The translations under genes were made by a program, and so were the position numbers. This document shows positions 4,123 to 32,932 of a stretch of DNA of 33,935 nucleotides, one piece after another. The stretch is from Aurantiochytrium sp. KH105 (Eukaryota; Sar; Bigyra; Thraustochytrida; Thraustochytriidae). The DNA lies in NCBI GenBank assembly GCA_003116975.1, contig BGKB01000387.1, positions 1 to 33,935 of the forward strand. Direction: 5' to 3'. The notes under the pieces were generated by a model. That model was not told where the DNA came from and made no database searches. It worked only from the letters and a program-made list of their open reading frames with translations. Position 1 is the first letter of the stretch. Each line of letters opens with the position of its first letter.

Positions 4123-5214
4123 TTATGACGTTACCAAGCTAATAATAATGAGTGAGACGACGATTATGACGATGAGAACCAATACACCATTCACGTTGTT
4201 TATTTTCGCATTGGTGAAAAAATCGAATACTTTCTGCAAAATCGCTTCGAAAGAGTTGTCATCATCGTCGTCCCCTGATAAGTACTCATAGGTTGGGTAT
4301 TGTGTTGGGCTCGATGTCGGTGCGTTCGTGGTGGGTGCATAGGTTTCGTTAATCATTGTTGGTTGTCTTGTGAAAAAAGGCGTCGGGGGTACCGGACCAT
4401 CCGTGCAAGTATGGTTGGTCGTGTTGCACGATAGATTTTCAACACAGTGGCTATCTTCATAGCAAGGATATTCGTAAATTGGACAGGGGCAGTTTTCGTC
4501 GCAGAATTGAGTATCATTTCGAGGTCCGTCGTCGCAACGATAAAATAGTTGAAACCTTCTAATATCACTTTGTGCAATATCATAATTGCCAAGAACTCGA
4601 TCTGGGTCTCCGATTGCAGTTATGGTATAAAGATTTTCTGGGTCAATGCTAAATTCTGTCCGCTTGTAGTGCATCACCGAGTTGAGGTCATATCCTGTCC
4701 CAAGCGTATACATGTCTTCCTGTGCGATTGCAAAATTGGACTCCGCTCCGCTACGAATGTTTTCCTCATGAATTGTGACAAAATTGTCTCTGTCCTTGCG
4801 GCTTTGTTCGTGGTAAAATCCGAGTGCATGTAGGATCTCGTGCTTGACTGAATTTCTGTAAATGCACCCTAAATTGTTGAGGATAATTTCTTGTGCGCCA
4901 CCAACGCGTCCAACCCAAGACTGACAACCGTCTCCGTTCTGAAAAAGAATGTAATCATCTTCATTTGTTCGCTCAATGAACGTAATGTATCGAAGTTGTT
5001 CTTGCATTTCTTCAATGTAGGTGTTGATAAGGGTTGCTTCTGATTCCGTGAAATTGTTGGTCATGAAAGTATAAGGCACAACGACGCCTTTTGCATTCCG
5101 TGTGCTCCATCGTGAGTACGTGCCTGTTTGCATTTGCAAATCCCTCTCCGCACTGCATAGTCTATGGAGAAATGCAATGGCAATCAATACTTTCTGTATT
5201 GAAAAATAGGACAT
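4123..5214 (-). CDS. membrane-anchored astacin (M12A) zinc metalloprotease, 363 aa
   Basis: This is a secreted or surface zinc endopeptidase of the astacin family. A hydrophobic signal peptide covers residues 1-22. The zinc site is HEILHALGFYHE (residues 125-136), with His125, His129 and His135 as ligands and Glu126 as the catalytic base, followed by the family-typical QSRKDRD. The Met-turn is SVMHY (179-183), with Met181 and the Tyr183 ligand. Cys97 and Cys117 match the conserved disulfide of the fold. After the catalytic domain comes a Cys-rich segment (about 227-271), a Pro-Thr linker (about 275-309), an acidic patch and a C-terminal membrane anchor (about 343-362). The propeptide is very short. 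The ATG at 5214 gives the signal peptide directly. Astacins are common in eukaryotes, so host acquisition is likely; an entry or release role is inference. Confidence 0.93.
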   Translation of the reverse strand: MSYFSIQKVLIAIAFLHRLCSAERDLQMQTGTYSRWSTRNAKGVVVPYTFMTNNFTESEATLINTYIEEMQEQLRYITFIERTNEDDYILFQNGDGCQSWVGRVGGAQEIILNNLGCIYRNSVKHEILHALGFYHEQSRKDRDNFVTIHEENIRSGAESNFAIAQEDMYTLGTGYDLNSVMHYKRTEFSIDPENLYTITAIGDPDRVLGNYDIAQSDIRRFQLFYRCDDGPRNDTQFCDENCPCPIYEYPCYEDSHCVENLSCNTTNHTCTDGPVPPTPFFTRQPTMINETYAPTTNAPTSSPTQYPTYEYLSGDDDDDNSFEAILQKVFDFFTNAKINNVNGVLVLIVIIVVSLIIISLVTS

Positions 5215-6282: not shown

Positions 6283-6283
6283 N
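6283..6283. other. scaffold join (single N)
   Basis: A lone N interrupts the sequence. Left of it an ankyrin-like plus-strand gene is truncated; right of it begins the C-terminal part of a minus-strand gene. Frames read across the N join one gene to the antisense of the other, so this is a contig junction of unknown true gap size. Confidence 0.85.
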
Positions 6284-12177: not shown

Positions 12178-15100
12178 ATGTCTTCATCGTCGTCCTCTTC
12201 TTCGATGTATGTGCAAGGGCATGGCTCGATGGGAATAGATGAAGGTGATGATGATAGCAACAGGTTGGATGATTTTCAACGCAAATCATCTCGAGACCAC
12301 GTGCTGATCCGGCCTCAAATGTTCCTTGGTTCAGTTGAGCCGACGAAACAGGATTTATTCATCCATCACGAAAAAAACAATGAGATTACCAAGCACAAAG
12401 GTGTTGTGTTTAACCCCGGTCTTATGAAGATCATTGACGAAGCCATCGATAATGCCATGGACAATGTGGGACGTTCTCCTCCCACGACGGTCATTCGCGT
12501 CGATCTCGATATCGAGAAGAATACAGTATCCGTGTCGAACAATGGACGGCACATTCCCATCACGAAGAAGGTTTTCACGGAGGGCGACCCTGAAGAGTGG
12601 ATTCCATCTGTCATCTTTGGAGACTGCATGTCTGGGTCCAATTTCAGCGATGAAGGTCGCACGGGTGCTGGTATGAATGGTTTGGGCATCAAGTTGGCGA
12701 ACATTATGTCGTCCTCATTCAAGGTCTCCTGCTACGACCCAACACGGGAACTCTACTTTGTCCAGAAATGGAAAGACAATATGGGTGTTGCTGGTGAGCC
12801 TGTGATACGTGAGAACGTGAAGTCGCCTCCGCGTGGAAAACACAGAATTACCTGCGTTGAGTTTTCCCCGAGGCCTGAGCAATTTCATGGATCTCGCATC
12901 ACCAAGGAAGTTGTGGACATTGTCCGCACACGGCTTTTGGGCATTCTCGGTACGATTCGCTCAAGCAAGCCTCTCAAGGTCTATTTGAATGGGACTCGTT
13001 TAATGATTGCGTCATTCCGGAGCTTTGTGAGTCTTTTCAAACCTGGCAAGTTCTTCCTGGATGAGAGTCATCCCCAGCTCAAGTATGCGGTTGCAATGTC
13101 GAGCACTGATTCGTATGAGCACACGTCGTTCGTGAACAACGTCATGACGACGAGCGCGGACAGTTCGGAGTTGCGTACCGTAACGAGTGCGGTAACCAGT
13201 GCTCTGGCAGACCATCTGAAATCGAGCCGCGGTGCAGGGGACTCTGGTGGTGTATCGACGTACACCATTCAGAGCAAACTACACGTCTGGGTTTCTCTGC
13301 ACATGGAAGCGCCAAACTTCGATTCGCAAGCGAAAACGCGTTTGACTTCGAGTATTCGAAAAATCTTCAAGTTGGACGAAGCCAAGCTCGTGAGCGTTGC
13401 GAAAGCAAGTGGTCTGATGAAGGAGTTGATTGATGCGACCAAGAAGAGGGCTCTTCAAAGTCTCTCTCGTTCTATGAATGGCTCGGGGCGCAACCGGACC
13501 GTGCTCGTGGATAACCTAGACGATGCGCACGTTGCGGGAACTGCTCGTGGCAATCAGGCCACCTTGATGGTCTGTGAGGGTTTCTCTGCAAAGACATTCA
13601 TCATGATCGGTCTGTCGGTTGTGGGTCGCGAACTCTATGGTGTATTTCCATTGAAAGGTAAACCCATCAATGTGCGCAATGCGACGACCTCGCAGCTGAA
13701 AAATAACCCAGAGCTGGTGAACCTCATGAAGATTCTGAATCTTCGGTTTGGTGTAGACTACGAGAGTGATTTGGCATTCTCGGAGTTGCGCTATGGTCGG
13801 CTCTGTATCATCACCGATGCTGATGTGGATGGGTCGGGTCATATTACGGGCCTGCTGCTGAACATTTTCGACAAGTTCTGGCCCAGTCTTATCTACGGAA
13901 AGCGCAAGTTTCTCTGCAGATTCATGACACCGATTGTCAAAGTTACGGGTCCGAGCAAGCACGTCTTTTATGACACAGCTGAATACGACGCATTTGTGCA
14001 AGACAAGGGAGAAGCAAGGATGAAACGATACAATGTGCAACATCTGAAAGGTCTCGGTACCTCGCTTCGTGAGGACACCCTTTCCTACTTCAATGCAATG
14101 AACGAATTTCATCTCAAGGAGTTCGATGGGAGAAATAATGCGTCCAGGCTCTTCGAATTTCTTTTTGACAAGACGGGGACGGAGTGGAGAAAGAGATGGC
14201 TCATGAAGGCAAGTTGTGCCAAATTGCAACTCGACCAAGAGGACGATGAATTCGACCAAGATGAATACGACTACGGGGACGACGACGATGACGCCGATAC
14301 GGTGGTTTTCCCCACTTCGTACGATGTGCATGCACCTACCGTTGACATTGCAGCCTATCTCAACACGGAAATGCTGCAGTATTCGCTTTATAGTATTCAG
14401 CGAAGCATCCCAAGTGCGATTGATGGTCTGAAAGTGAGTCAACGGAAGATCCTGTTTGGTTTTCTGAAGAAATTCAGCAGGTCTTCTCAAACGGGAGAGA
14501 AAGTCGCGCAGCTCGCTGCCTATGTTGCCTCGTGCACAAACTATGCGCACGGAGAAGACTCTTTGCAAAAAGCCGTGGTGAAGCTTGCGCAAGATTTTCC
14601 CGGTTCCAACAACGTGAATCTTTTGGATCCCCTTGGTTCCTTTGGTTCGCGCATGTTGATGGGTGAGGATTGTGCAGCGGGCCGGTACATTTATACGCGT
14701 CTCACGCAGAATGCTCTTGAATTGTTTCCGGCGCGAGACCATGTGGTGCTGAAAAACCTCGTCGAGGAGAACAAGCTAGTCGAGCCGGCCTTTTACGTCC
14801 CTCGGCTCCCGGTCGTCCTTTTGAATGGAACGAATGGTCTCGCGACTGGTTTCAAGAGCTCGGTGCCTTGTTTCAATCCAGATGATATTCGTGCTCTCAT
14901 CGACAAGATTACAAGCAACGAAACACTATCGGACAACGATGAGCCTCTCCCGTGGTATCGTAATTATCGTGCGAATGACACGACGGTGTCTGCAGGTGAT
15001 TCCTGGGAGTTTCGAGGCAAGGTTCGGATTGAAGGGGGTCCTCTTGGTTCCGTTTCCCATCGGATAGTGATTGATGAAATTCCTGTCATGGTGAAAGTGG

Positions 15101-15804
15101 AAAAGTACAAGGACAAGATTTTGACTCCTCTCGTCGACGCCAAGATTCTCACCCATTTCGTTGTTGACCACAAGTCCGAGAATGAACCTACGTTCATCGT
15201 GTATCCTGGTGAGAAGTGGCCTCCGGAAGAAGATGTGCTAAAGACACTCAAGCTGACGCGCACTTTTTCAAAGAGGAACATGAACCTACTCGATCGACAT
15301 GGCAAGGTTGTGAATTTCAAAAAGGTCGTTGATATCGTCAAGTACTGGGTTGAGCTCCGGAAAGAGTTCATCAACCTTCGGATTGAATTCGAAAAGGGAG
15401 ACTTGGACAAAAAGATCGAGGCAATGAATCACAAGCTTCGTTTCCTCCGTGCCATTGTTATACAAGACCTGGACATCCGTCTGGACAGAATTGAAGTGGA
15501 GAAAGTGATGAGTGAGAAACTTGGTATCCCCAAGAGCTTCCACACTGAATTTTTGAACATGCCCATCATGTCCATTACGAAAGACAAAATCCGCGAAGCC
15601 GAAAATGCTGTGGCGGACATGGTGCTGTGTCGTGAAGACTTAAATCGTTGGACGCCTCTACATGTCCTTCGTGAAGAAGCTCTAAACGGCAACGACAGTA
15701 ATTTACACAATCGCGACGCAAAACGTATTCGGCGAGAGCAAGAGCAATTCAATGCTCTCATGGCAGATGTTGAAGAAGACCTGTCAGACATTGAAATGCC
15801 ATAG
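12178..15804 (+). CDS. DNA topoisomerase II (type IIA), 1208 aa
   Basis: This enzyme passes one DNA duplex through a transient double-strand break using ATP and relieves supercoils and tangles during replication. It has the eukaryotic single-chain layout. The GHKL ATPase shows DEAIDNAMDN (Glu88, Asn92) and TGAGMNGLGIKLAN. The TOPRIM domain has EGFSAK (Glu467) and TDADVDGSGH (Asp547, 549, 551), and PLKGKPINVRNA follows the first TOPRIM motif. An acidic Asp-rich insert lies at about 690-715. The breakage-reunion domain has RSIPSAIDGLKVSQRKILF and the catalytic Tyr837 in AAGRYIYT. The protein ends after the coiled-coil gate without the long C-terminal tail of cellular enzymes, as is usual in viral topoisomerase II. 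In TOPRIM the canonical EGDSA is EGFSA, a small oddity. All catalytic residues are present. Confidence 0.97.
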   Translation: MSSSSSSSSMYVQGHGSMGIDEGDDDSNRLDDFQRKSSRDHVLIRPQMFLGSVEPTKQDLFIHHEKNNEITKHKGVVFNPGLMKIIDEAIDNAMDNVGRSPPTTVIRVDLDIEKNTVSVSNNGRHIPITKKVFTEGDPEEWIPSVIFGDCMSGSNFSDEGRTGAGMNGLGIKLANIMSSSFKVSCYDPTRELYFVQKWKDNMGVAGEPVIRENVKSPPRGKHRITCVEFSPRPEQFHGSRITKEVVDIVRTRLLGILGTIRSSKPLKVYLNGTRLMIASFRSFVSLFKPGKFFLDESHPQLKYAVAMSSTDSYEHTSFVNNVMTTSADSSELRTVTSAVTSALADHLKSSRGAGDSGGVSTYTIQSKLHVWVSLHMEAPNFDSQAKTRLTSSIRKIFKLDEAKLVSVAKASGLMKELIDATKKRALQSLSRSMNGSGRNRTVLVDNLDDAHVAGTARGNQATLMVCEGFSAKTFIMIGLSVVGRELYGVFPLKGKPINVRNATTSQLKNNPELVNLMKILNLRFGVDYESDLAFSELRYGRLCIITDADVDGSGHITGLLLNIFDKFWPSLIYGKRKFLCRFMTPIVKVTGPSKHVFYDTAEYDAFVQDKGEARMKRYNVQHLKGLGTSLREDTLSYFNAMNEFHLKEFDGRNNASRLFEFLFDKTGTEWRKRWLMKASCAKLQLDQEDDEFDQDEYDYGDDDDDADTVVFPTSYDVHAPTVDIAAYLNTEMLQYSLYSIQRSIPSAIDGLKVSQRKILFGFLKKFSRSSQTGEKVAQLAAYVASCTNYAHGEDSLQKAVVKLAQDFPGSNNVNLLDPLGSFGSRMLMGEDCAAGRYIYTRLTQNALELFPARDHVVLKNLVEENKLVEPAFYVPRLPVVLLNGTNGLATGFKSSVPCFNPDDIRALIDKITSNETLSDNDEPLPWYRNYRANDTTVSAGDSWEFRGKVRIEGGPLGSVSHRIVIDEIPVMVKVEKYKDKILTPLVDAKILTHFVVDHKSENEPTFIVYPGEKWPPEEDVLKTLKLTRTFSKRNMNLLDRHGKVVNFKKVVDIVKYWVELRKEFINLRIEFEKGDLDKKIEAMNHKLRFLRAIVIQDLDIRLDRIEVEKVMSEKLGIPKSFHTEFLNMPIMSITKDKIREAENAVADMVLCREDLNRWTPLHVLREEALNGNDSNLHNRDAKRIRREQEQFNALMADVEEDLSDIEMP

Positions 15805-21463: not shown

Positions 21464-21737
21464 GAAGTAATAATTGATTAAATAATTAAACAAGCGTTGT
21501 CGTTTGTGTCATGTGATGATAAATTCTTTGCCAAATTGTTACTTGTGATTAAATATTTAAACTTGTCTGTGTGAAAAGAAAGTAAACTCGAAAGCAATCC
21601 AAACCCGCAACTGCTCGAGTCAAAGGATTGTGATTCTTTCGCAAGGCTGAGAGAGCGAGCGCACTCACATACTTGTCTTTTGCTCTTGTTGTTTGAAAGG
21701 GAAATTAATAAAGGAATTCTTGGGACCGGTGGGAGAA

Positions 21738-24700
21738 ATGGCCTTCCTCAATGATGAGCTGAAAAAGGTCAGCTTTCAATGCTGCATGTACACCAAGATT
21801 GACCCAAACGAGGATGATCCTGAGATCATTGAATCTTGGCTTACGCTCCTCGCTGATCTCAAGCCTTACGCCGAAGCCGTGAATAAGCTTCTGAGATGCA
21901 CGTTCACGTATTCAGGTGAGAACTCTTGCTTTCGTGCGGAGTTCTCTCGTGAGAACATCATGGCCCTGCGCGCCTCGTGGATGGAAAAGGTGTCTGAGAT
22001 TGCTCCTGAATCGATGAACATCGGGTATTTTTCCAACGTGTTGGACGAATTGCTGCCCATGCTTCTTGACTCCTCTTCTTCGGAAAAGAAAAAGAATAAC
22101 AAGAAGAAGAATAACAAAGGTGCTTGCACTCAGCGCCAAGATACTCCTTTTGAAGGAGATGCCTTTGTTGTCGATGTTGATTGGGAAGATACAGGTGGTG
22201 GAGCGCAAGCATTTGTTTACATGCGTGATGTGAAAGATTCTTCGCAACGTATCCTGGTGACAGCGGAGCTCGACGACTATTTCTATATTCAGGTTGACGC
22301 ACCTGGACACCCCACGCAAGCTGAGGTGATGCAAGCCCTCTCGAATACGGCGTGGTGGCTGAAGAATTCGAAATACAAAGACTCGTACGTGAATAGCTAT
22401 AGAAATGTGAATGTGGGTGGTGGTCCTCAAAACAAGCCTAGGCGTGGTGGATCTCTCCTTGTGTCCACAACACGTACTTTTATCACCTCAACGCAATACG
22501 TGAGAGACAGGCGCTCCATGTACGGATTTCAACGCCATTGCGGAAACTTTCTGCAGATCAATGTGTTGAGTCCAACCATTGCAAAAGACCTTTTTCGGTC
22601 GCTCTCCAAGAAAAATCCTCAATGGTGTTTTTTCGAGGTAAATCTTGATCCGGTGTGCAAGTTTATGGTTCGCTATGGAATGCACACTGGCTCCTGCGTA
22701 CACGTCAAGGGGACCTCGCTTGCAAAGAATATGTTGAGCACATGTCAAAGGCTCGTGATCAATGGTAAATTCTCCAAAGCTCGGACCCCCGCTGAGGACA
22801 TACCTTTCTTTGCCTCTCGCAACATGTTCTATGATATTGAGTGTCTGAGTATGGAGATCAACACTTTTCCAACGCCTGATAAGTGTCCTGTGATTCAGAT
22901 TTCGTTTGTGATCACTGACGGTGATTCACGTGTTGTCGTCGAGGGTGTGCTCTGTGTCGGTGAAACTGAAACCGGAAGTACATCCTATGATGGCCTGATG
23001 CGGTCGTTTGAGAACGAGACTGACATGCTAATTGGATTTTCCAAACTGATTCGGGAGTATGCGCCTGAGAATTTGGTTGGCTACAATTCGAACAGCTTTG
23101 ATATGCCTTATATTCTCAAGCGCATGGACGTACTCTCCATCGGTTTCGCCAAAGAGTTTTCGAGGCGGAATGGGCTTTTTGTGGAATACAAATCAAGCGA
23201 GCGTTCAAGCAATCAAAGTGGATCAACGATTGTCAACGAATACATCTCCCCTGGTCTCGTATTTTTCGACCAGTTGGACGTGCTAAAGAAAGATGTGACG
23301 GTACACCTCCGCAATCTGCAGCTGAAAACCGTGTGCGAGCACTTTCTGGGAAACCAAAACAAGGAAGATCTTGCCTATCGTGATATTCCTGTACTCTTTA
23401 AAACCCCGCAAGGACGAGGCAAGATTGCCACGTACTGTCTACAAGATTCGCGGTTGCTCCTTGAGCTTGACAAGGTTGCATCTTTTTCTGTCAAAACGGT
23501 GGGTATGGCTAGCGTACTTGGTACGACGTCAACAATCATTCTGATGAGAGGTTTGGTGTTCAAGCTGCTGTGTCGTGTGAAGAAATACACGTTAAAACGT
23601 GGTTATCTCATCCCATCGTACACGGAAGCGCAGCGACCCAAATTCGAAGGAAGTTATCCAGGTGCATTCGTTGTGGAACCTGTTCGTGGTCTGCACGAGG
23701 ATCCCGTGGTCGTGTGTGATGCTGCTTCCTTGTACCCGAGTTGCATGCGGTGCGACAATCTATGCTGGACAACCTATCTGCTTCCAGAAGACCATGCTCG
23801 TGAATTGGCAAACAACAAGGATGATTTCAATGACTTCGAGGGGCATTACTTTGCCAAGAAATCGGTTCGCTTAGGAATTCTTGTGGAGTTGCAGACAGAC
23901 TTGGCCAAAGCGCGCAAAGATGCCAAAAGGACACGAGATACATATGAATCGGGTTCGTCGGGCTGGTTGGTTTATGAGTCTGTCCAGTTGGCTACCAAGG
24001 TTGTGATGAACAGTCTGTATGGTATGGCAGGTGCCAAGACCTCACCTGTTCCCTTGCGCGAACTTGCGCTGACAATTACAGCTCGTGGGCGTTTCATGTT
24101 GAACATGTTCAAGACGTACGTGGAAGAAAACTATGTGAACATCACAGGGGAGGATCAGGGTGTGGAAATTGTCTACGGCGACTCGGTGCACGGTAGTACG
24201 CCAATCATCGTTCGGTTGTCGGATGGCAGCGTTCGTGTTGTCCTCATCGAACACCTTCATCGATATCTTGAGACACCCTATGAACCAGGACATCGGGGCA
24301 AGGAAGTCGTTCCCGTTCTAGATGACAGCGTGCAGGTGTGGAGTGATGCCGGGTGGACCACGGTGCATCAGATTGTTCGGCACAAGTATCACAAGTCTTT
24401 GGTGCGTGTTTCAACCTCGTCTGGTTCAAGTGTGGTGTGTACGCAGGACCATAGTTTGTTGGAAAAGGGAAGTTGCCGAGAGCTCCGACCAAGTGATGTG
24501 AAGATTGGAAAGACTTCATTATGCCATGCGGCTTATACAATTCGGGGCTATGACGATGGAAGCTATTCGCCCATGGTACCAAGCGTACCTGCGCCTATTT
24601 TCTTTGACGCCTTTGTGGCACCGTGTAGTCTTTCGGACCGAGACGCGTGTACATTGGGCATTATTATGGTGCGCGCTGAGTGGCTTGCCAAAGTAAACGA

Positions 24701-26027
24701 GTACTGTGTTCGTATCGATGGAATTCCGAGTGAAAAAGTACGCGCACTTTGTGAATTTCTCAATTTCCGCTGCTGCTCCTCTTCGCAGAGAAATGAATGG
24801 TATATCAGCTATTCACAAAAGCACGGGCGAGTTCTGTGTCGTGGTTTTTTGATGGGTATTGCCTCGTCATCGCAGACAACGTTGCAGAATTGGGACGAAT
24901 TTCTACGAGATGCGTATACGAACGAGCGACACGTGCATCCTTATTTTCTATCAAGTCCGCGTCTTTTTGCGAAGCGAGCCGTCCTGAAATATGCATTCAA
25001 GTATTATGATGGACTTGGTGAGGTGGCAGAGAGTGAAAAGGTGTTCCAGGGCATTCACTGTGCGCTCTCCGGTCAGGGCTTTCGTTCCGCGTTAATGTGC
25101 AGACGCGATGGTGCCCATGTCGTTTCATCGTGTTACCCGGTGCCTGTGTCTGATGAGGGTGTGTATGTGTACGACCTAACGACCTCGAATCATCATTTCC
25201 AAGCTGGTTTGGGGAGCATGGTTGTGCACAATACTGATTCCATCTTTTTCAAACTTCGTGGTGTGGACATCACCAAGGCTATTGGCTATGGTCAGCTCAT
25301 CTCCAGCAAGTTCAGTCAGGACAAACTCGTTGACATGAAGCCGCACGACTTTGAATACGAAAAGGCGTTTGTGAGGTTGATTTTGTTCAAGAAAAAACAT
25401 TACCTTGGCTTCTGCTTCGAGACTGATCCGACCAAGGGTAAACTGAAGGCAATGGGCATCAAGATGGTCCGGCGCGATGCCGCGGTGCTGTGTGTGAAAG
25501 CAATGAAAGGATTCTCCGACGCCTTTATTGTGAATAATGACAAGGCACTTGCGGAAAGACGAATCCGTGAGATTATGAGCAACATGTACGCAGGCAAACT
25601 CCCGATCGAGGACTTTGGTATCGCGCGAAAAATCACGAGGACAGAATACAAAGTGGTTCCACCTCACGTCAAGTGTTGGAAACGAATGGTTGCACGTTAC
25701 GGAGAGATGGACGCGCCTGCCCTTGGTGAGCGCATCGAATTTGTCATCACCAAGAAGCCATACGAAAAGGATTTATCGGCTTGTATGTTGGACCTGCGCT
25801 CTGCAAAAGAATTGCCCGGTGTTGCAATTGACTACGAAAGGTACCGAAAGACCTATATCGACAATCCTCTTCGGGAATTCATGGTATTTGTGTTGGGGGA
25901 GGAGAAGACCAATGAAATTCTAAACGCATCCAATTACGAGCAGGTGTCCTGTGTCGTTGCAAACAAAAGAAACCTGCTTGGTTTTTTTGGAGTGCAGAGT
26001 ATAACGACCAAGAAGAGAAAGAAATAA
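21738..26027 (+). CDS. polB: family B DNA polymerase with intein, 1429 aa precursor
   Basis: This is the replicative polymerase with 3'-5' proofreading. I start at the ATG at 21738; the frame opens at a TTG at 21693 that is less likely. Exonuclease motifs: FYDIE (Asp366, Glu368), GYNSNSFD (Asn450, Asp455) and YCLQD (Tyr566, Asp570). Polymerase motifs: motif A DAASLYPS (661-668), motif B KVVMNSLYG (754-762, Lys754), and motif C YGD/TDS, split by a 350-residue intein after Asp815. KKHYLGF follows as the KKxY motif. A Lys/Asn-rich low-complexity insert (EKKKNNKKKNNK) lies in the N-terminal domain near residue 120. Without the intein the enzyme is about 1079 residues, normal for this family in large DNA viruses. 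All catalytic residues are present, but activity requires intein removal. Confidence 0.97.
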   Translation: MAFLNDELKKVSFQCCMYTKIDPNEDDPEIIESWLTLLADLKPYAEAVNKLLRCTFTYSGENSCFRAEFSRENIMALRASWMEKVSEIAPESMNIGYFSNVLDELLPMLLDSSSSEKKKNNKKKNNKGACTQRQDTPFEGDAFVVDVDWEDTGGGAQAFVYMRDVKDSSQRILVTAELDDYFYIQVDAPGHPTQAEVMQALSNTAWWLKNSKYKDSYVNSYRNVNVGGGPQNKPRRGGSLLVSTTRTFITSTQYVRDRRSMYGFQRHCGNFLQINVLSPTIAKDLFRSLSKKNPQWCFFEVNLDPVCKFMVRYGMHTGSCVHVKGTSLAKNMLSTCQRLVINGKFSKARTPAEDIPFFASRNMFYDIECLSMEINTFPTPDKCPVIQISFVITDGDSRVVVEGVLCVGETETGSTSYDGLMRSFENETDMLIGFSKLIREYAPENLVGYNSNSFDMPYILKRMDVLSIGFAKEFSRRNGLFVEYKSSERSSNQSGSTIVNEYISPGLVFFDQLDVLKKDVTVHLRNLQLKTVCEHFLGNQNKEDLAYRDIPVLFKTPQGRGKIATYCLQDSRLLLELDKVASFSVKTVGMASVLGTTSTIILMRGLVFKLLCRVKKYTLKRGYLIPSYTEAQRPKFEGSYPGAFVVEPVRGLHEDPVVVCDAASLYPSCMRCDNLCWTTYLLPEDHARELANNKDDFNDFEGHYFAKKSVRLGILVELQTDLAKARKDAKRTRDTYESGSSGWLVYESVQLATKVVMNSLYGMAGAKTSPVPLRELALTITARGRFMLNMFKTYVEENYVNITGEDQGVEIVYGDSVHGSTPIIVRLSDGSVRVVLIEHLHRYLETPYEPGHRGKEVVPVLDDSVQVWSDAGWTTVHQIVRHKYHKSLVRVSTSSGSSVVCTQDHSLLEKGSCRELRPSDVKIGKTSLCHAAYTIRGYDDGSYSPMVPSVPAPIFFDAFVAPCSLSDRDACTLGIIMVRAEWLAKVNEYCVRIDGIPSEKVRALCEFLNFRCCSSSQRNEWYISYSQKHGRVLCRGFLMGIASSSQTTLQNWDEFLRDAYTNERHVHPYFLSSPRLFAKRAVLKYAFKYYDGLGEVAESEKVFQGIHCALSGQGFRSALMCRRDGAHVVSSCYPVPVSDEGVYVYDLTTSNHHFQAGLGSMVVHNTDSIFFKLRGVDITKAIGYGQLISSKFSQDKLVDMKPHDFEYEKAFVRLILFKKKHYLGFCFETDPTKGKLKAMGIKMVRRDAAVLCVKAMKGFSDAFIVNNDKALAERRIREIMSNMYAGKLPIEDFGIARKITRTEYKVVPPHVKCWKRMVARYGEMDAPALGERIEFVITKKPYEKDLSACMLDLRSAKELPGVAIDYERYRKTYIDNPLREFMVFVLGEEKTNEILNASNYEQVSCVVANKRNLLGFFGVQSITTKKRKK
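24183..25232 (+). mobile_element. intein in DNA polymerase motif C (YGD/TDS site), 350 aa
   Basis: The intein starts with Ser (SVHGSTPIIVRLSDGS) directly after YGD and ends with VVHN directly before TDS, so the first extein residue after it is Thr. Splicing elements present: nucleophile Ser1, block B CTQDH (Thr87, His90), C-terminal block VYVYDLTTSNHHFQAG, penultimate His349 and Asn350. This is the same insertion point used by inteins in several mimivirus-group and algal virus polymerases. The centre (about 24650-24880) looks like a LAGLIDADG endonuclease that has lost its acidic residues. Splicing should therefore work, but homing probably does not. Confidence 0.93.
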
Positions 26028-26109: not shown

Positions 26110-28917
26110 ATGATGCATTCTTCAAAAATGTCAGTTGAGCCAAGGTCAAGTGAAATTGGAAGTGTTAGTTTTACTCCACTACATAGTTCTGAAGTCTTGA
26201 ATGCTATATCCAAAGTTCATGTGAAAATTCCTTCCCCTCGCGTTTCTTTTGGTTTGAATAACACATTGCACGATTTGCGCATGGGTGCATTTCTGAATAT
26301 GACCTGTGGAACCTGCTCCAAGAATTCCAGGGATTGTCCTGGGCATTTTGGGCACTGTGAGTTGTCAATTCCTATTGCGAACAGTAATTTCATCAAAACC
26401 TTATTAGCTCCCATCCTGCGTAATTTCTGTGCGAATTGCAATAAAATTAGTTGCAAGGATATCATTGATGTCGATGATGACAATTTGAAATGCTCGTGTA
26501 AAAAAGGGGATAGACTTCAATACGTGGTGAAGTATCCTCGATCAGGTGGCGAGTCTACCAGCAAGACTGATGCTTCATTAAAACCCTCAGAGGGTGGATC
26601 CTCAACTCAGTCGAGTAAAGGAAAGAAAGCAAGTGGGAAAGGGGAATCAAATCCCCGTGCGGGCAAAGATGATGCAAGTAGGAAGCGTAAGACGGAATCG
26701 GGTTCGATGTCCGGGGCTGGTCAAAGGAGCAAAAGGGTGAAAAAGGGGGGAGACGACTCTAAGCAGAGTAAAAAGTCTGATGAAGGTGCTTGTAGTAAGC
26801 AAAAGAAGATCACGAAGAAGGAGTTGATTCGCTCTGTGCAGAAAATGTCAAACCGCAAGAGTATTGTAAAGTATGATTTTGTTGAACGCTACTCGGGGGA
26901 AAGTGTTAGTTCTTTGAAAGTATTTGAATTTGTTTCCGTGATTGCGCAAGTTCTAAAGGATGTTCCGGAAAAGGTTGTGTTCGCGTCGGAAGCGATGGAA
27001 TTACTAAGAAAGTATGATGACCTCACAGATGTAGTTTATATTAAATACCTGCCAATCCTGCCAATATGTGGTAGGATACCTAACAAATGTAATGGTGAAT
27101 GGTTTCCACATCATCTCACAGTAATGTATTCTGCTGTGCTGAAAAAGAACATTCAGCTAAAAAACGCCATTTCAAATGGCTTGCACACCGGTCTTATCAA
27201 CGAGTATTATACTGAGTTGCAGGACTGTGTGAACATTCTTTTTGATGTAAAAAACACCTCCAGGGTGCTTCGAAACAAGGTGATTGGAACGGGTAGTCTT
27301 CGTCAACTCATCGATGGCAAAAAAGGTCGAATTCGAGGAAATCTTATGGGCAAGCGTGTTGAATTTTGCAGTCGCAGCGTTCTCTCAGGTGATCCCGTTT
27401 TAAGAATCAACGAGGTGGGTCTGCCACGCAGCGTTTGTCAAAATTTGACAATACCCGTCCTGGTGACACAGTATAATATCGGTAAAATGTCATCGTGGAA
27501 CATTCGGTACATTTCGAAGCGAGGCTCGGGTCAGCGATTTGATGCATCCTTGCTTTCTTTCCCAATTTCTGAAATGATCGAGATTGGAGATACCGTTGAG
27601 CGTTCACTTATTGATGGTGACATCGTCGCGGTAAATCGACAGCCAAGTCTGCATAGAGCCTCAATGAATGCAATGTACGTCCGTGCTTTTGATTGCAATA
27701 CAATTCGTCTTAATTACTCGAGTATGCCTGGGTTAGGTGCGGACACGGACGGTGATGAGCTCAACATTCATGTGCCGCAGGATGAAAAATCGCGCGCTGA
27801 GCTGGAGGAATTGATGCTCATGAGTACCACAATTGTTTCAAATCAGAGCTCGATGCCAATTCTGGGACTCACCCAAGACAGTTTGTTGGGGTGCTACCTT
27901 CTGAGCAAGGCTATTCTGTGTGAAGCTGATTTTTTTGACATTCTCTACAAGTCCGGGGTCGATAAGGTTTGTTCTTTGGGACCCGAGTCCTGTGCGGTAG
28001 CTAGACCTTGCATTCTGTGTCCCCGTCGTATGTACTCGGGCTTGCAGCTTTTTGACTGTGTAATGTATCACATTGATGTGAGCATTGGCGACATCGTCGA
28101 CTATGAAAAAAACGGTGTCATCGTCCGCTGCGGTGAATTTATCCAAGGTATCCTGTCCAAGAAGGTGATTGGTATTTCTGATCATAGCATTATTCATTTC
28201 ATTTATGTGAAATATGGGCATAAAAAGGCAGCCGATTTTATGTACTTTGCACAAAGGCTGGCAGACAATTTCCTCAATATTGAAGGCTTCTCTGTGGGAG
28301 TCAGCGATTGTGTAATAGACGACGACGTTGATCTCAATGTCGATGGCGTTGATGAATTGATTCGACAAGACTTGGAAGAGAGAGGAAAGCTGCCAGATGA
28401 AGCGCAATTGTGTGAGGCATTGAATGGAATCACGCAGTTGCCACCGTCATCGTCCCCTATTGCTCAAAATGCAGAAAATCGATTGCTGGACATGATTGAA
28501 TCGGGGTCAAAGGGCTCAATTGTAAATTATAATCAAATCACGCGGTGCTTGGGTCAGCAATTCTCGTCTCGTGGACGCTTAGGCTTTGAGCTTTCCGATA
28601 AAACACGGACTTTCCCACATAAAAGTCGTTTTGACAACTCGTTGGACTCTCGTGGTTTTGTGAGAAATTCATTTATTTCTGGTCTCACGCCGATTGAATT
28701 TTGGAATCACTCCAAGCCTTCGCGAATTTCAATGATTGACACAGCGTGTAAAACGAGTGTGACAGGTGCTCAGCAGCGTAGACTGGTTAAATCTCTCGAG
28801 AAGATTATTGTGGAAGATGGTGGAGATGGTTCCCGACTTGTAAAAAATATGACGGATGGGATGGTTGTTCAATTCAATTATGGAGATGATGGTCTCGATG
28901 CAACAGACCTAATTTGA
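26110..28917 (+). CDS. DNA-directed RNA polymerase largest subunit, N-terminal part (RPB1-N), 935 aa
   Basis: This subunit forms the clamp, active centre and bridge helix of a multi-subunit RNA polymerase for viral transcription. The clamp zinc site is CGTCSKNSRDCPGHFGH (Cys66, Cys69, Cys76, His79); CANC (107-110) and CSC (128-130) follow. A Lys/Ser-rich low-complexity insert of about 90 residues (roughly 145-236) interrupts the clamp. Core motifs are RGNLMGKRVEFCSRSV, NRQPSLHRASM and GADTDGDELNIHVP, with the Mg-binding Asp545, 547 and 549 in place but Gly instead of Asn at 543. The bridge helix region reads IDTACKTSVTGAQQRRLVK. The protein stops at YGDDGLDATDLI, where RPB1 normally continues into the jaw and trigger loop. 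Those parts must be encoded elsewhere. Three close ATGs exist (26110, 26113, 26128). Confidence 0.95.
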   Translation: MMHSSKMSVEPRSSEIGSVSFTPLHSSEVLNAISKVHVKIPSPRVSFGLNNTLHDLRMGAFLNMTCGTCSKNSRDCPGHFGHCELSIPIANSNFIKTLLAPILRNFCANCNKISCKDIIDVDDDNLKCSCKKGDRLQYVVKYPRSGGESTSKTDASLKPSEGGSSTQSSKGKKASGKGESNPRAGKDDASRKRKTESGSMSGAGQRSKRVKKGGDDSKQSKKSDEGACSKQKKITKKELIRSVQKMSNRKSIVKYDFVERYSGESVSSLKVFEFVSVIAQVLKDVPEKVVFASEAMELLRKYDDLTDVVYIKYLPILPICGRIPNKCNGEWFPHHLTVMYSAVLKKNIQLKNAISNGLHTGLINEYYTELQDCVNILFDVKNTSRVLRNKVIGTGSLRQLIDGKKGRIRGNLMGKRVEFCSRSVLSGDPVLRINEVGLPRSVCQNLTIPVLVTQYNIGKMSSWNIRYISKRGSGQRFDASLLSFPISEMIEIGDTVERSLIDGDIVAVNRQPSLHRASMNAMYVRAFDCNTIRLNYSSMPGLGADTDGDELNIHVPQDEKSRAELEELMLMSTTIVSNQSSMPILGLTQDSLLGCYLLSKAILCEADFFDILYKSGVDKVCSLGPESCAVARPCILCPRRMYSGLQLFDCVMYHIDVSIGDIVDYEKNGVIVRCGEFIQGILSKKVIGISDHSIIHFIYVKYGHKKAADFMYFAQRLADNFLNIEGFSVGVSDCVIDDDVDLNVDGVDELIRQDLEERGKLPDEAQLCEALNGITQLPPSSSPIAQNAENRLLDMIESGSKGSIVNYNQITRCLGQQFSSRGRLGFELSDKTRTFPHKSRFDNSLDSRGFVRNSFISGLTPIEFWNHSKPSRISMIDTACKTSVTGAQQRRLVKSLEKIIVEDGGDGSRLVKNMTDGMVVQFNYGDDGLDATDLI

Positions 28918-29011
28918 ATGAAGAATTCACCACACGACTTCATCTATCAAGTAAGTGGAAACATGTGAAGCAGTAATAAAGAAATAGTCAAAAGATAGTT
29001 TCGGTCAGAGT

Positions 29012-30140: not shown

Positions 30141-32932
30141 TCAGAACGAGAACTCATCCCGAACAATTCGATGACCAGGCTTTCGACCCACGTTTCCTCC
30201 TTGCATCAATTCCCTCGCACGCCTGTTTCCACATCGAGAAGCAACAAAAATTGCAATGAATGCAAGGTTAACGCTGATGGTAATCGCTGCTGCGATGGTC
30301 ATTCCGGGGTAATTCTCAAAGAATGTTCCGGTTGCAACAGTCTGGGTCGTTTCGGCGTTGCTTCCTGCATCACCAATCACAAAACGCGTGCTTCCCCTTG
30401 CGTACATGGTGTTGATGGAAGATCCCACGCTCGATTGTGGTCGTGCCCCGCATCCACCAATCACGCTGATGGTTTCGACGTCGACGACCAGATAGGGACG
30501 GTCATAGTCTGTTGGGAACCAATTCTCAGGTTTGACAAGGACAAAATCGGTGTTGCTGTTGTCCTCAAACCCGCGCCAGGTATTTGTGACTTGGCACATG
30601 TCCTCGAGAACGGCAGTGCTGAGACTTCCTGTCAACGAGTTGAGCTGATTCTTCCGCTGACCATCAAAGAATTCGTTGCATCGCTCACTTGTGCTGTTGA
30701 AGTCATACCAGCTGCAAAAGATTCCATCGGCGTAGTATGGGCTGGATGTGTACTTCATAAGTTGTGTTTTCTCGCCGGCGTTAATCGTAGTTTGTGCGAT
30801 AACCTGGTTGTCGCCAGTGGGTTCTCGCAAGGTGATGATGACGGTCTTGATCGAGTTCTCCAATGAGGTAAATGGGTTCGTCGAGGGATCTCCTGCGGTC
30901 GACCGAATGATAATCTTATCGCTCATGTCGATGGTTGCGTTGCTTGTCCAGTTTGTGCTTCCGCCGCTGTAATAGTTCTTGACTTCGACGGAAATTGGAA
31001 ACACCTCCGATACATCGTTAAGTGTAAGTGTGTCAGAATCGGACATGCAGGTCTCCATCGAGAAAGTCTGATCCTGAATGTTCGATTGTGTTGTTGCCAT
31101 CGCATGGTTGAGATAAATATCGGTGTCCCCAATGTATTCCTTGNGGCGTTAATCGTAGTTTGTGCGATAACCTGGTTGTCGCCAGTGGGTTCTCGCAAGG
31201 TGATGATGACGGTCTTGATCGAGTTCTCCAATGAGGTAAATGGGTTCGTCGAGGGATCTCCTGCGGTCGACCGAATGATAATCTTATCGCTCATGTCGAT
31301 GGTTGCGTTGCTTGTCCAGTTTGTGCTTCCGCCGCTGTAATAGTTCTTGACTTCGACGGAAATTGGAAACACCTCCGATACATCGTTAAGTGTAAGTGTG
31401 TCAGAATCGGACATGCAGGTCTCCATCGAGAAAGTCTGATCCTGAATGTTCGATTGTGTTGTTGCCATCGCATGGTTGAGATAAATATCGGTGTCCCCAA
31501 TGTATTCCTTGAAATGCATGTTTTTGATGGGACGCTTATCGGGACGTTCAAGAATGCAGTTCAGGTCGTCATCAAGAGCCATGTTTTCGCAATTTCGCGT
31601 GTGGAAGTAGTGAATGCAATCGTAGAGCGTAGACTCTGAGTCTGCGATTTGCGATGTTGTGCAGGTACGTTGCGGAAGAGGGCTTGCAACATCAGGGTCG
31701 ACGCCTCCGTAAAGCATAGAACCTCCAATGGTTGCAGGCTGGTCCGAATCCCAGTAAATCTTATCACTGACGCTCGTTGTCTGTACCATCAGAACAATGT
31801 AGCTCTGAGGAATAACGTAAAACTCGCTCGGTGTGCATCGCTCAGCGTTGATATTTACAATCTCGGTGTTAAAAATGACATATTGGCTGAGATCATTGCT
31901 GTCCACGACGATATCATGTGTAATCGACGCAGGCACAGAGTTGCTATCAGGGGAGAAATAATTGCACGCTCCACTCGTTGAAGAAATCTGCACTGAGGTA
32001 TCCATAGTAATCGACTCGGTACCAACCTGTACGCTCGATGAGCACTGCTTGAGTTGTTCTAATGTGAGTGTAAACTCATAGTATGCCACATTGTCCACTT
32101 CTGGTTCAGCGGGCATGGTGAAATTTTCCGTAAGCGATAGCGTGCAATTGTCAGGGTCGTTGTTCAGGTAGACATTTGTTGTAATGAAGTCTCCAAGTGT
32201 TCCGCAAGTCTCGGGAATCGGGAGCTCATTTGCTCGATTGACAATGACCTCGAGAACAACGTCGATGCTAGTTGTGCTGATGTCAAGAGAAATGACGGCG
32301 TCATCGATTGTGAATGGGAATTGGTCCATGTAATCGGAAGGAATAAGGATTGTATCATAGTCAAACGCAACGATGATCTCCTCGCCGTCGTCTGTGAAGT
32401 TCTGAAAGTAAAAGTACACTGTGGAGTCATCCAGCATGTCCTCTGTGCTGAGTACCTCATCCAAATTGTAATTGCAGTACGTGAATGATCCATCAGATTC
32501 ATCTTCGTCGCCGGGATTCATGTTCACTTCGGCAAAACTCAACCCGGTGTCATTTTGGCCGAAAAAGAGACCACTCTCGCCACAGTTGATTCGGGCATTG
32601 CTGTTCTTTGGGTATACCCTGAAGTTTCTTTTGAAAGTGGTCGTCGCGTTGTTATAGTAGCGCATGACGATGTCGAATTCGGAGCCATCCATAGAAGCTC
32701 CATCTTCAAAGTGCGAGCCTCCGTCATTGACAATGGTTTTGGAATCGCTTGAATACGTCAATGAAATGAAGTTCTGTCCGGTCATGTCTGCCATTGTCAT
32801 GTTGCATGAGGCATCGCCGGGTACAATACAGAACATGTCATCCGACAACGCCAAGGTGGTCTTGGTGTTCAAGAGAATCAAAAATGCAATAGCTGCAAAA
32901 GGAACCATTTGAGAAAGCATTATAAAAGCCAA
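30141..32932 (-). CDS. large type I membrane glycoprotein-like protein, split by duplicated scaffold overlap
   Basis: The minus-strand ATG at 32932 begins a signal peptide (about residues 10-29), followed by a large Cys-containing ectodomain rich in beta-type sequence and N-glycosylation sequons. A membrane segment (MTIAAAITISVNLAFIAIFV) and a short basic tail with RRARELMQ and KPGHRIV follow at the 3' end. The frame is interrupted at the N at 31144 because 367 bp are duplicated on both sides. Counting the duplicate and the N once less leaves 2424 nt, an exact multiple of three, about 807 residues, so the gene is most likely intact in the virus. I recognise no fold or family. Topology suggests an envelope or surface protein; fusion or attachment roles are speculation. 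Confidence 0.82.
30777..31511. repeat. 367-bp direct duplication flanking an N (assembly artefact)
   Basis: Bases 30777-31143 reappear as 31145-31511 with a constant offset of 368. Every stretch I compared was identical. The copies abut a single N at 31144. Perfect identity, position exactly at the join and restoration of the reading frame on collapse all indicate two overlapping contig ends that were concatenated instead of merged. Confidence 0.95.
31144..31144. other. scaffold join (single N) inside duplicated overlap
   Basis: This N separates the two copies of the 367-bp overlap. Unlike the joins at 6283 and 10452, this one supports true adjacency of the two contigs, because they share sequence. 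Confidence 0.95.

Follow-up and report, generated by a model that had tools for sequence, protein, structure and literature searches.

In the window, i.e., the whole stretch of 33,935 nucleotides that was analysed (contig C358 of an assembly of 76 Mb and 367 contigs), the gene for the largest RNA polymerase subunit encodes the N-terminal half of RPB1 only. A free gene for the C-terminal half is present on another contig of the assembly, C168. It is quite probable that the product of the window gene is one of two chains that are translated separately and would assemble like archaeal Rpo1N and Rpo1C, with the C-half gene at another place in a genome that is likely mirusvirus-like and shared by both genes. 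The C168 gene would be the partner, and in the simplest reading the two chains would meet in one enzyme. Clamp, catalytic aspartates and bridge helix would come from the N-half, and the trigger loop, the remaining cleft and clamp and a short CTD-like tail from the C-half; the assembled enzyme would transcribe viral genes. This reading draws on an end that is shared by all N-halves compared, on the C168 gene together with eight database C-halves, on separate halves in Hondaea fermentalgiana, on shared GC content and codon usage, on complementary gene content, and on the nearness of the break to the archaeal one. Against it stand the unjoined contigs, the missing viral RPB2, the weak likeness of the C168 leader to other leaders, the non-adjacent genes, and a poor model of the C-half.

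The N-terminal half and its conserved end

The following features were assigned in the window, all on the plus strand:

12178..15804, type II DNA topoisomerase (Pfam)
21693..26027, family B DNA polymerase with intein (Pfam), directly upstream of the RPB1 gene on the same strand
26110..28917, RPB1 N-terminal half, 935 amino acids, stop codon TGA at 28915-28917
27736..27759, catalytic motif GADTDGDE, residues 543-550 of the N-half
28690..28797, bridge-helix region, residues 861-896, three predicted helices; Rpb1 domain 5 starts at residue 858
28879..28914, conserved N-half terminus YGDDGLDATDLI, with the YG codon at 28879 and the TGA next
28951..28956, donor-like GTAAGT, 34 bases past the stop; one of six on the plus strand of the window, with no function shown

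The N-half contains Rpb1 domains 1-4 (Pfam), and of domain 5 just positions 1-66 of 267. An AlphaFold2 model (mean pLDDT 76.0) has helices at residues 861-868, 872-882, and 884-896, a region that we take to be the bridge helix. It is followed by a YGDD motif, and the stop comes right after this motif. A preliminary description of the sequence had placed the end of RPB1 directly behind the bridge helix, which is borne out by the extent of the frame and of domain 5. Two other features of the window are recorded here. The intein of the DNA polymerase sits between two DNA_pol_B matches, and an Astacin-type metalloprotease (Pfam) with a PT-rich stretch and a hydrophobic end is encoded at 4123-5214 on the minus strand.

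The end of the N-half is conserved. A database search gave 671 matches, of which the best 120 were listed; scoring covered the 7,993 candidates with the most shared words. The 47 closest relatives are 727-880 amino acids long, are 40-57% identical to the window protein, and are set apart among the matches listed by a gap in score, from 477 bits for the last of them to 397 bits for the next match. Candidates of 514-1636 amino acids were eligible, and therefore unsplit members could have shown up among the relatives. All 48 N-halves (window and 47 relatives) end 12-38 residues, with a median of 16, past the start of the YG motif. In addition, three decayed copies with internal stops and host-like GC content were found on other contigs of the assembly:

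C155:120881-122808, decayed N-half
C142:194442-196361, decayed N-half
C72:260067-260681, decayed N-half

They are 40-53% identical to the window protein, and all three end 29 residues past the motif, with EEHLS preceding the stop. Segment by segment they are 76-97% alike and thus represent one lineage. A distant viral RPB1 frame on an IMG/VR contig (IMGVR_UViG_3300025141_008390, L042:9917-12691) has 925 codons from stop to stop and likewise terminates close to the motif, with position 64 of 267 as the end of its domain 5 match; the next frame encodes a beta-type DNA polymerase.

A truncated gene, a pseudogene or a misread base might be suspected in a sequence with three single-N joints. However, these joints lie at 6283, 10452, and 31144, and the RPB1 gene is clear of all of them. 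The frame is otherwise open, and D545, D547, G548, and D549 are invariant in all 48 aligned rows. Truncation, which the preliminary description had put forward, is refuted by the conserved end, and the same end speaks against a misread base at TGA 28915, which it had named as a refuting case; moreover, reading through the TGA adds 16 codons before a second stop. This whole group of explanations has a practically negligible probability. The joint at 31144 is flanked by identical 367-bp copies (30777-31143 and 31145-31511), which look like unmerged contig ends, and frames in that stretch are therefore unsafe.

The free C-terminal half

An assembly-wide search with Rpb1 domain 5 found ten places. 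Five are whole genes, on C30, C87, C57, C77, and C26. Four stop at profile position 66-67, namely, the window gene and the copies on C142, C72, and C155. The last one, C168:129856-130836, starts at profile position 66 and runs to 264. It lies in the only free C-terminal RPB1 gene of the assembly, on a contig from which an N-half is absent:

C168:129592-131301, free C-terminal RPB1 gene, 570 codons from a TTG; the first ATG, at 129604, gives 566 codons

The separate C-half that the preliminary description proposed to look for is thus present in the assembly, and the notion of a split gene is supported, with an end common to 48 of 48 N-halves and free C-halves on C168 and in eight database proteins. 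The same break in other genomes, also proposed there, was met in the 47 relatives and in the decayed copies on three contigs. The window contig has a single domain 5 match, to profile positions 1-67, and the three plus-strand frames 3' of the N-half contain no C-terminal half up to 29400, as the preliminary description had noted for the downstream DNA. Mirusviruses can be intron-rich (PMC12768974), and a missed cis intron at the break, with the C-half following downstream, might be imagined. However, all four contigs with an N-type match (C358, C142, C72, and C155) are devoid of a C-type match in the assembly-wide search, and a canonical donor before the stop is absent from the window gene, which makes this explanation very improbable.

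Including the C168 protein, nine C-halves were available, the eight from the database being P0121-P0127 and P0141. Hondaea fermentalgiana has the two halves in separate proteins that are encoded on different contigs, one of 32.6 kb and the other of 6.3 kb. The C168 protein matches Rpb1 domain 5 alone (positions 66-264, Pfam), and none of the nine contains a Pol II foot or jaw domain of Pfam. All nine have AAQS[IC]SE[RQ]F as their trigger-loop signature; the corresponding sequence in six further short A''-like rows, of which one is labelled archaeal by its source, is AAQS.GEPGTQM. The change in the trigger loop, S/T where other rows show M after GEP.TQ, may alter catalysis, although this is a guess. 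P0141 carries an intein with a LAGLIDADG domain (residues about 163-660) inserted at the trigger loop, after TQSTLN. At the C-terminal end of eight of the nine proteins the Pol II heptad-like motif [YF]xPxSP is found, doubled in four, and the ninth, P0123, has a near form. Shuffled tails yield the motif in 0.05 of nine proteins on average; near the end it also occurs in 19 of 73 other listed proteins (from the best 120 of 671 matches), and P0073 and P0104 are unsplit virus-like RPB1 proteins bearing heptads. The structure model of the C-half is poor.

The leader before AAQS comprises 89-158 residues in the C-halves, compared to 20-72 in the six other A''-like rows. Several leaders resemble each other from residue 1 or close to it (P0124-P0127, E 4e-14; P0125-P0141, 9e-14; P0126-P0127, 2e-8), which suggests that the C-half is started independently; the C168 protein has a leader with a weak likeness to the others (best E 0.01). 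A common leader is not expected if the two halves were joined by trans-splicing of two messages, an explanation that we regard as highly unlikely. It has a model in the mirusvirus terminase, reported to be trans-spliced (PMC12768974), and a donor-like GTAAGT is present at 28951. However, this GTAAGT lies past the stop, and a donor there is unable to remove it; from the YG codon to the stop the sole GT is in GTCTCG at 28892, which is not a canonical donor. Also, in close pairs the N-half tails behave as coding sequence would. Beyond the tenth tail residue their identity is 15, 33, 47, 65, and 88% for pairs with a body identity of 30-45, 45-55, 55-65, 65-80, and 80-100%, respectively. Tail and body are thus about equally conserved when the pair is close, and the tails drop faster in distant pairs; the share of pairs with equal tail length climbs from 9 to 62%. 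Joining of the chains after translation by a split intein would be in line with the inteins in the window DNA polymerase and in P0141, but tails of 12-38 residues leave no space for the N-part of an intein, and the C168 protein has no match besides domain 5; this possibility is next to nil. Two chains that stay separate remain the preferred reading.

One virus or two

The GC content of the window is 0.444, and three pieces of C168 around the C-half gene have 0.43, the two ends of C168 having 0.476 and 0.395; host loci have 0.56-0.59. Codon usage correlates with 0.83 between four window genes and five C168 frames, versus 0.64 and 0.40 with three host frames. The gene content is complementary, with a family B DNA polymerase on the window and no DNA_pol_B match on C168. 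For each half, the two nearest database proteins come from the same two sources, one of which is Hondaea fermentalgiana. All this argues against the explanation that the C168 gene stems from a second virus and that the true partner of the window gene lies outside of the assembly. That explanation is unlikely, yet it deserves to be taken seriously: the two contigs have no overlap, the sole match being 74 bp at 76% (40 kb of the 176-kb C168 were compared), and the three decayed N-halves of another lineage indicate that more than one such virus has entered the host, although these copies have a host-like GC content. Furthermore, a viral RPB2 was not found in the assembly. Its Rpb2_6 matches, six in all, group into three host-type pairs with equal scores within each pair, the pattern expected of three nuclear polymerases when two haplotypes are present. 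With the viral RPB2 missing, the viral genome in the assembly is incomplete, and therefore another C-half could be missing as well.

The preliminary description referred to nucleocytoviral RPB1 proteins, and a correction is due here, as the virus looks mirusvirus-like rather than nucleocytoviral. The only heliorhodopsin match of the assembly is on C168 (C168:140487-141188). Heliorhodopsin is described as a core function of mirusviruses which not many lineages of nucleocytoviruses share (PMC12768974), and the thraustochytrid Aurantiochytrium is a known source of mirusviruses (PMC12911909). Together with the low GC content of C358 and C168 relative to the host, these points suggest a mirusvirus-like virus and a host that is probably related to the thraustochytrids; the window contig is likely DNA of such a large virus. 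Among the mirusvirus informational genes, both RNApolA halves, DNApolB and a TFIIS ribbon (nine matches in the assembly, one of them on C168) were found, and a viral RNApolB was not. The assembly gave no match to Terminase_6N, a model that may not reach mirusvirus terminases, and none to the double jelly-roll capsid model Capsid_NCLDV, with which control genomes were silent as well. C168 also encodes an apparent pair of a serine recombinase with a MerR-like start and a TnpB-like protein (L038:5874-7910, minus strand), which is presumably of the IS607 type.

Position and origin of the break, and known systems

On solved chains, the match of the N-half profile extends as far as residue 881 in yeast RPB1, residue 860 in Sulfolobus Rpo1N (880 residues), and residue 878 in another Rpo1N, which is 907 residues long. 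The match of the C-half profile begins at yeast residue 1021; in the two best Rpo1C chains it starts with residue 13 and residue 5. Yeast residues 882-1020 have no counterpart in the matches of the two viral halves. The viral break is the archaeal break to within about 30 residues, and the archaeal-like position proposed in the preliminary description is thereby supported.

In three trees all split rows group in a single clade with an SH-aLRT support of 100, and in a fourth tree two decayed pieces fall within it, nearest to P0040. In two trees the clade adjoins the unsplit P0048 and P0049 (support 95 and 94.7). The larger trees sampled 30 of the remaining 73 proteins of the list (P0048-P0120), and P0141 was omitted from alignments A2 and A3, where its intein would sit. 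Constraining the split rows with three archaeal rows gave AU p-values of 0.66, 0.063, and 0.43 in three trees. The first of these included the decayed pieces, and there the constrained tree even outscored the free tree; the other two comprised 19 of 48 split rows, 20 of those 30 other proteins and two of three host rows, without the decayed copies, and the distant L042 frame was added to the last one. A better score than that of the free tree was also reached when this frame was constrained to the split clade (AU p 0.62), so its placement is unsure. Therefore, the split may have been regained within a viral Pol II-like lineage or may have been kept from an archaeal-type ancestor, and both stand with AU p-values of 0.06-0.66. 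The N-half, which scores 625 bits against Pol II and 506 against Rpo1N, and the CTD-like end lean toward a regained split, whereas the C-half, with 180 bits against Rpo1C and 164 against Pol II, leans toward a kept one, perhaps only because both lack the foot. It is a rather doubtful idea that the mirusvirus clade keeps a two-chain subunit from before the eukaryotic RPB1 fusion, with a Pol II-style heptad tail already present, and would thus be a living record of a polymerase between archaea and eukaryotes.

The archaeal split itself is already known; new here is a viral multisubunit polymerase with a split of the archaeal type, of which no prior description was present in the literature searched. 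If the two-chain reading is true, eukaryotic viruses of a widespread group build their largest subunit from two chains divided at the archaeal cut, the second chain ending in Pol II-like heptads. This would be relevant to whether the fusion of RPB1 in eukaryotes is ancient or can be reversed, and would offer a natural two-part viral polymerase for biochemistry. It would also mean that the trait can go unnoticed in surveys that fuse split hallmark genes or that seek a single long RPB1.

Viral beta and beta' homologues in several chains are known from the RNA polymerases of jumbo phages (phiKZ-type), which differ in being from bacterial viruses and in having other break points. Mirusvirus RNApolA is an informational gene like the one analysed here, and it is unsplit or fused in published data sets, clearly split hallmark sequences having been fused and labelled before analysis; neither the split place nor a conserved two-gene arrangement is described in the available text (PMC10132985). 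The trans-spliced mirusvirus terminase is likewise a core gene in two distant pieces (PMC12768974), but its pieces are joined at the RNA level by canonical splice sites, and none is seen at the break of the N-half. The nearest eukaryotic precedent in the literature searched is the RNA polymerase of yeast linear plasmids, K2ORF6p/K2ORF7p. It also belongs to a cytoplasmic virus-like element of a eukaryote and has its beta' homologue in two polypeptides, a division that its authors liken to some archaea (PMC6211774). Unlike the viral N-half with its Rpb1 domains 1-4, however, it has beta fused to part of beta' and is devoid of over half of the conserved regions of beta' (PMC6211774).

Archaeal Rpo1N (A') and Rpo1C (A'') likewise form a two-chain largest subunit that is divided between the bridge helix and the trigger loop, and the viral C-halves resemble the archaeal chain in that no Pol II-type foot or jaw domain of Pfam was found in them. 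The archaeal chains pair unjoined. The split of the archaeal largest subunit is stated, for example, in PMC2675907. In contrast to the archaeal proteins, the viral N-half scores higher against Pol II than against Rpo1N, and the viral C-half has a longer leader and a CTD-like end. In addition, the archaeal genes lie side by side at each of the three loci examined, whereas the viral genes are located on the separate contigs C358 and C168.
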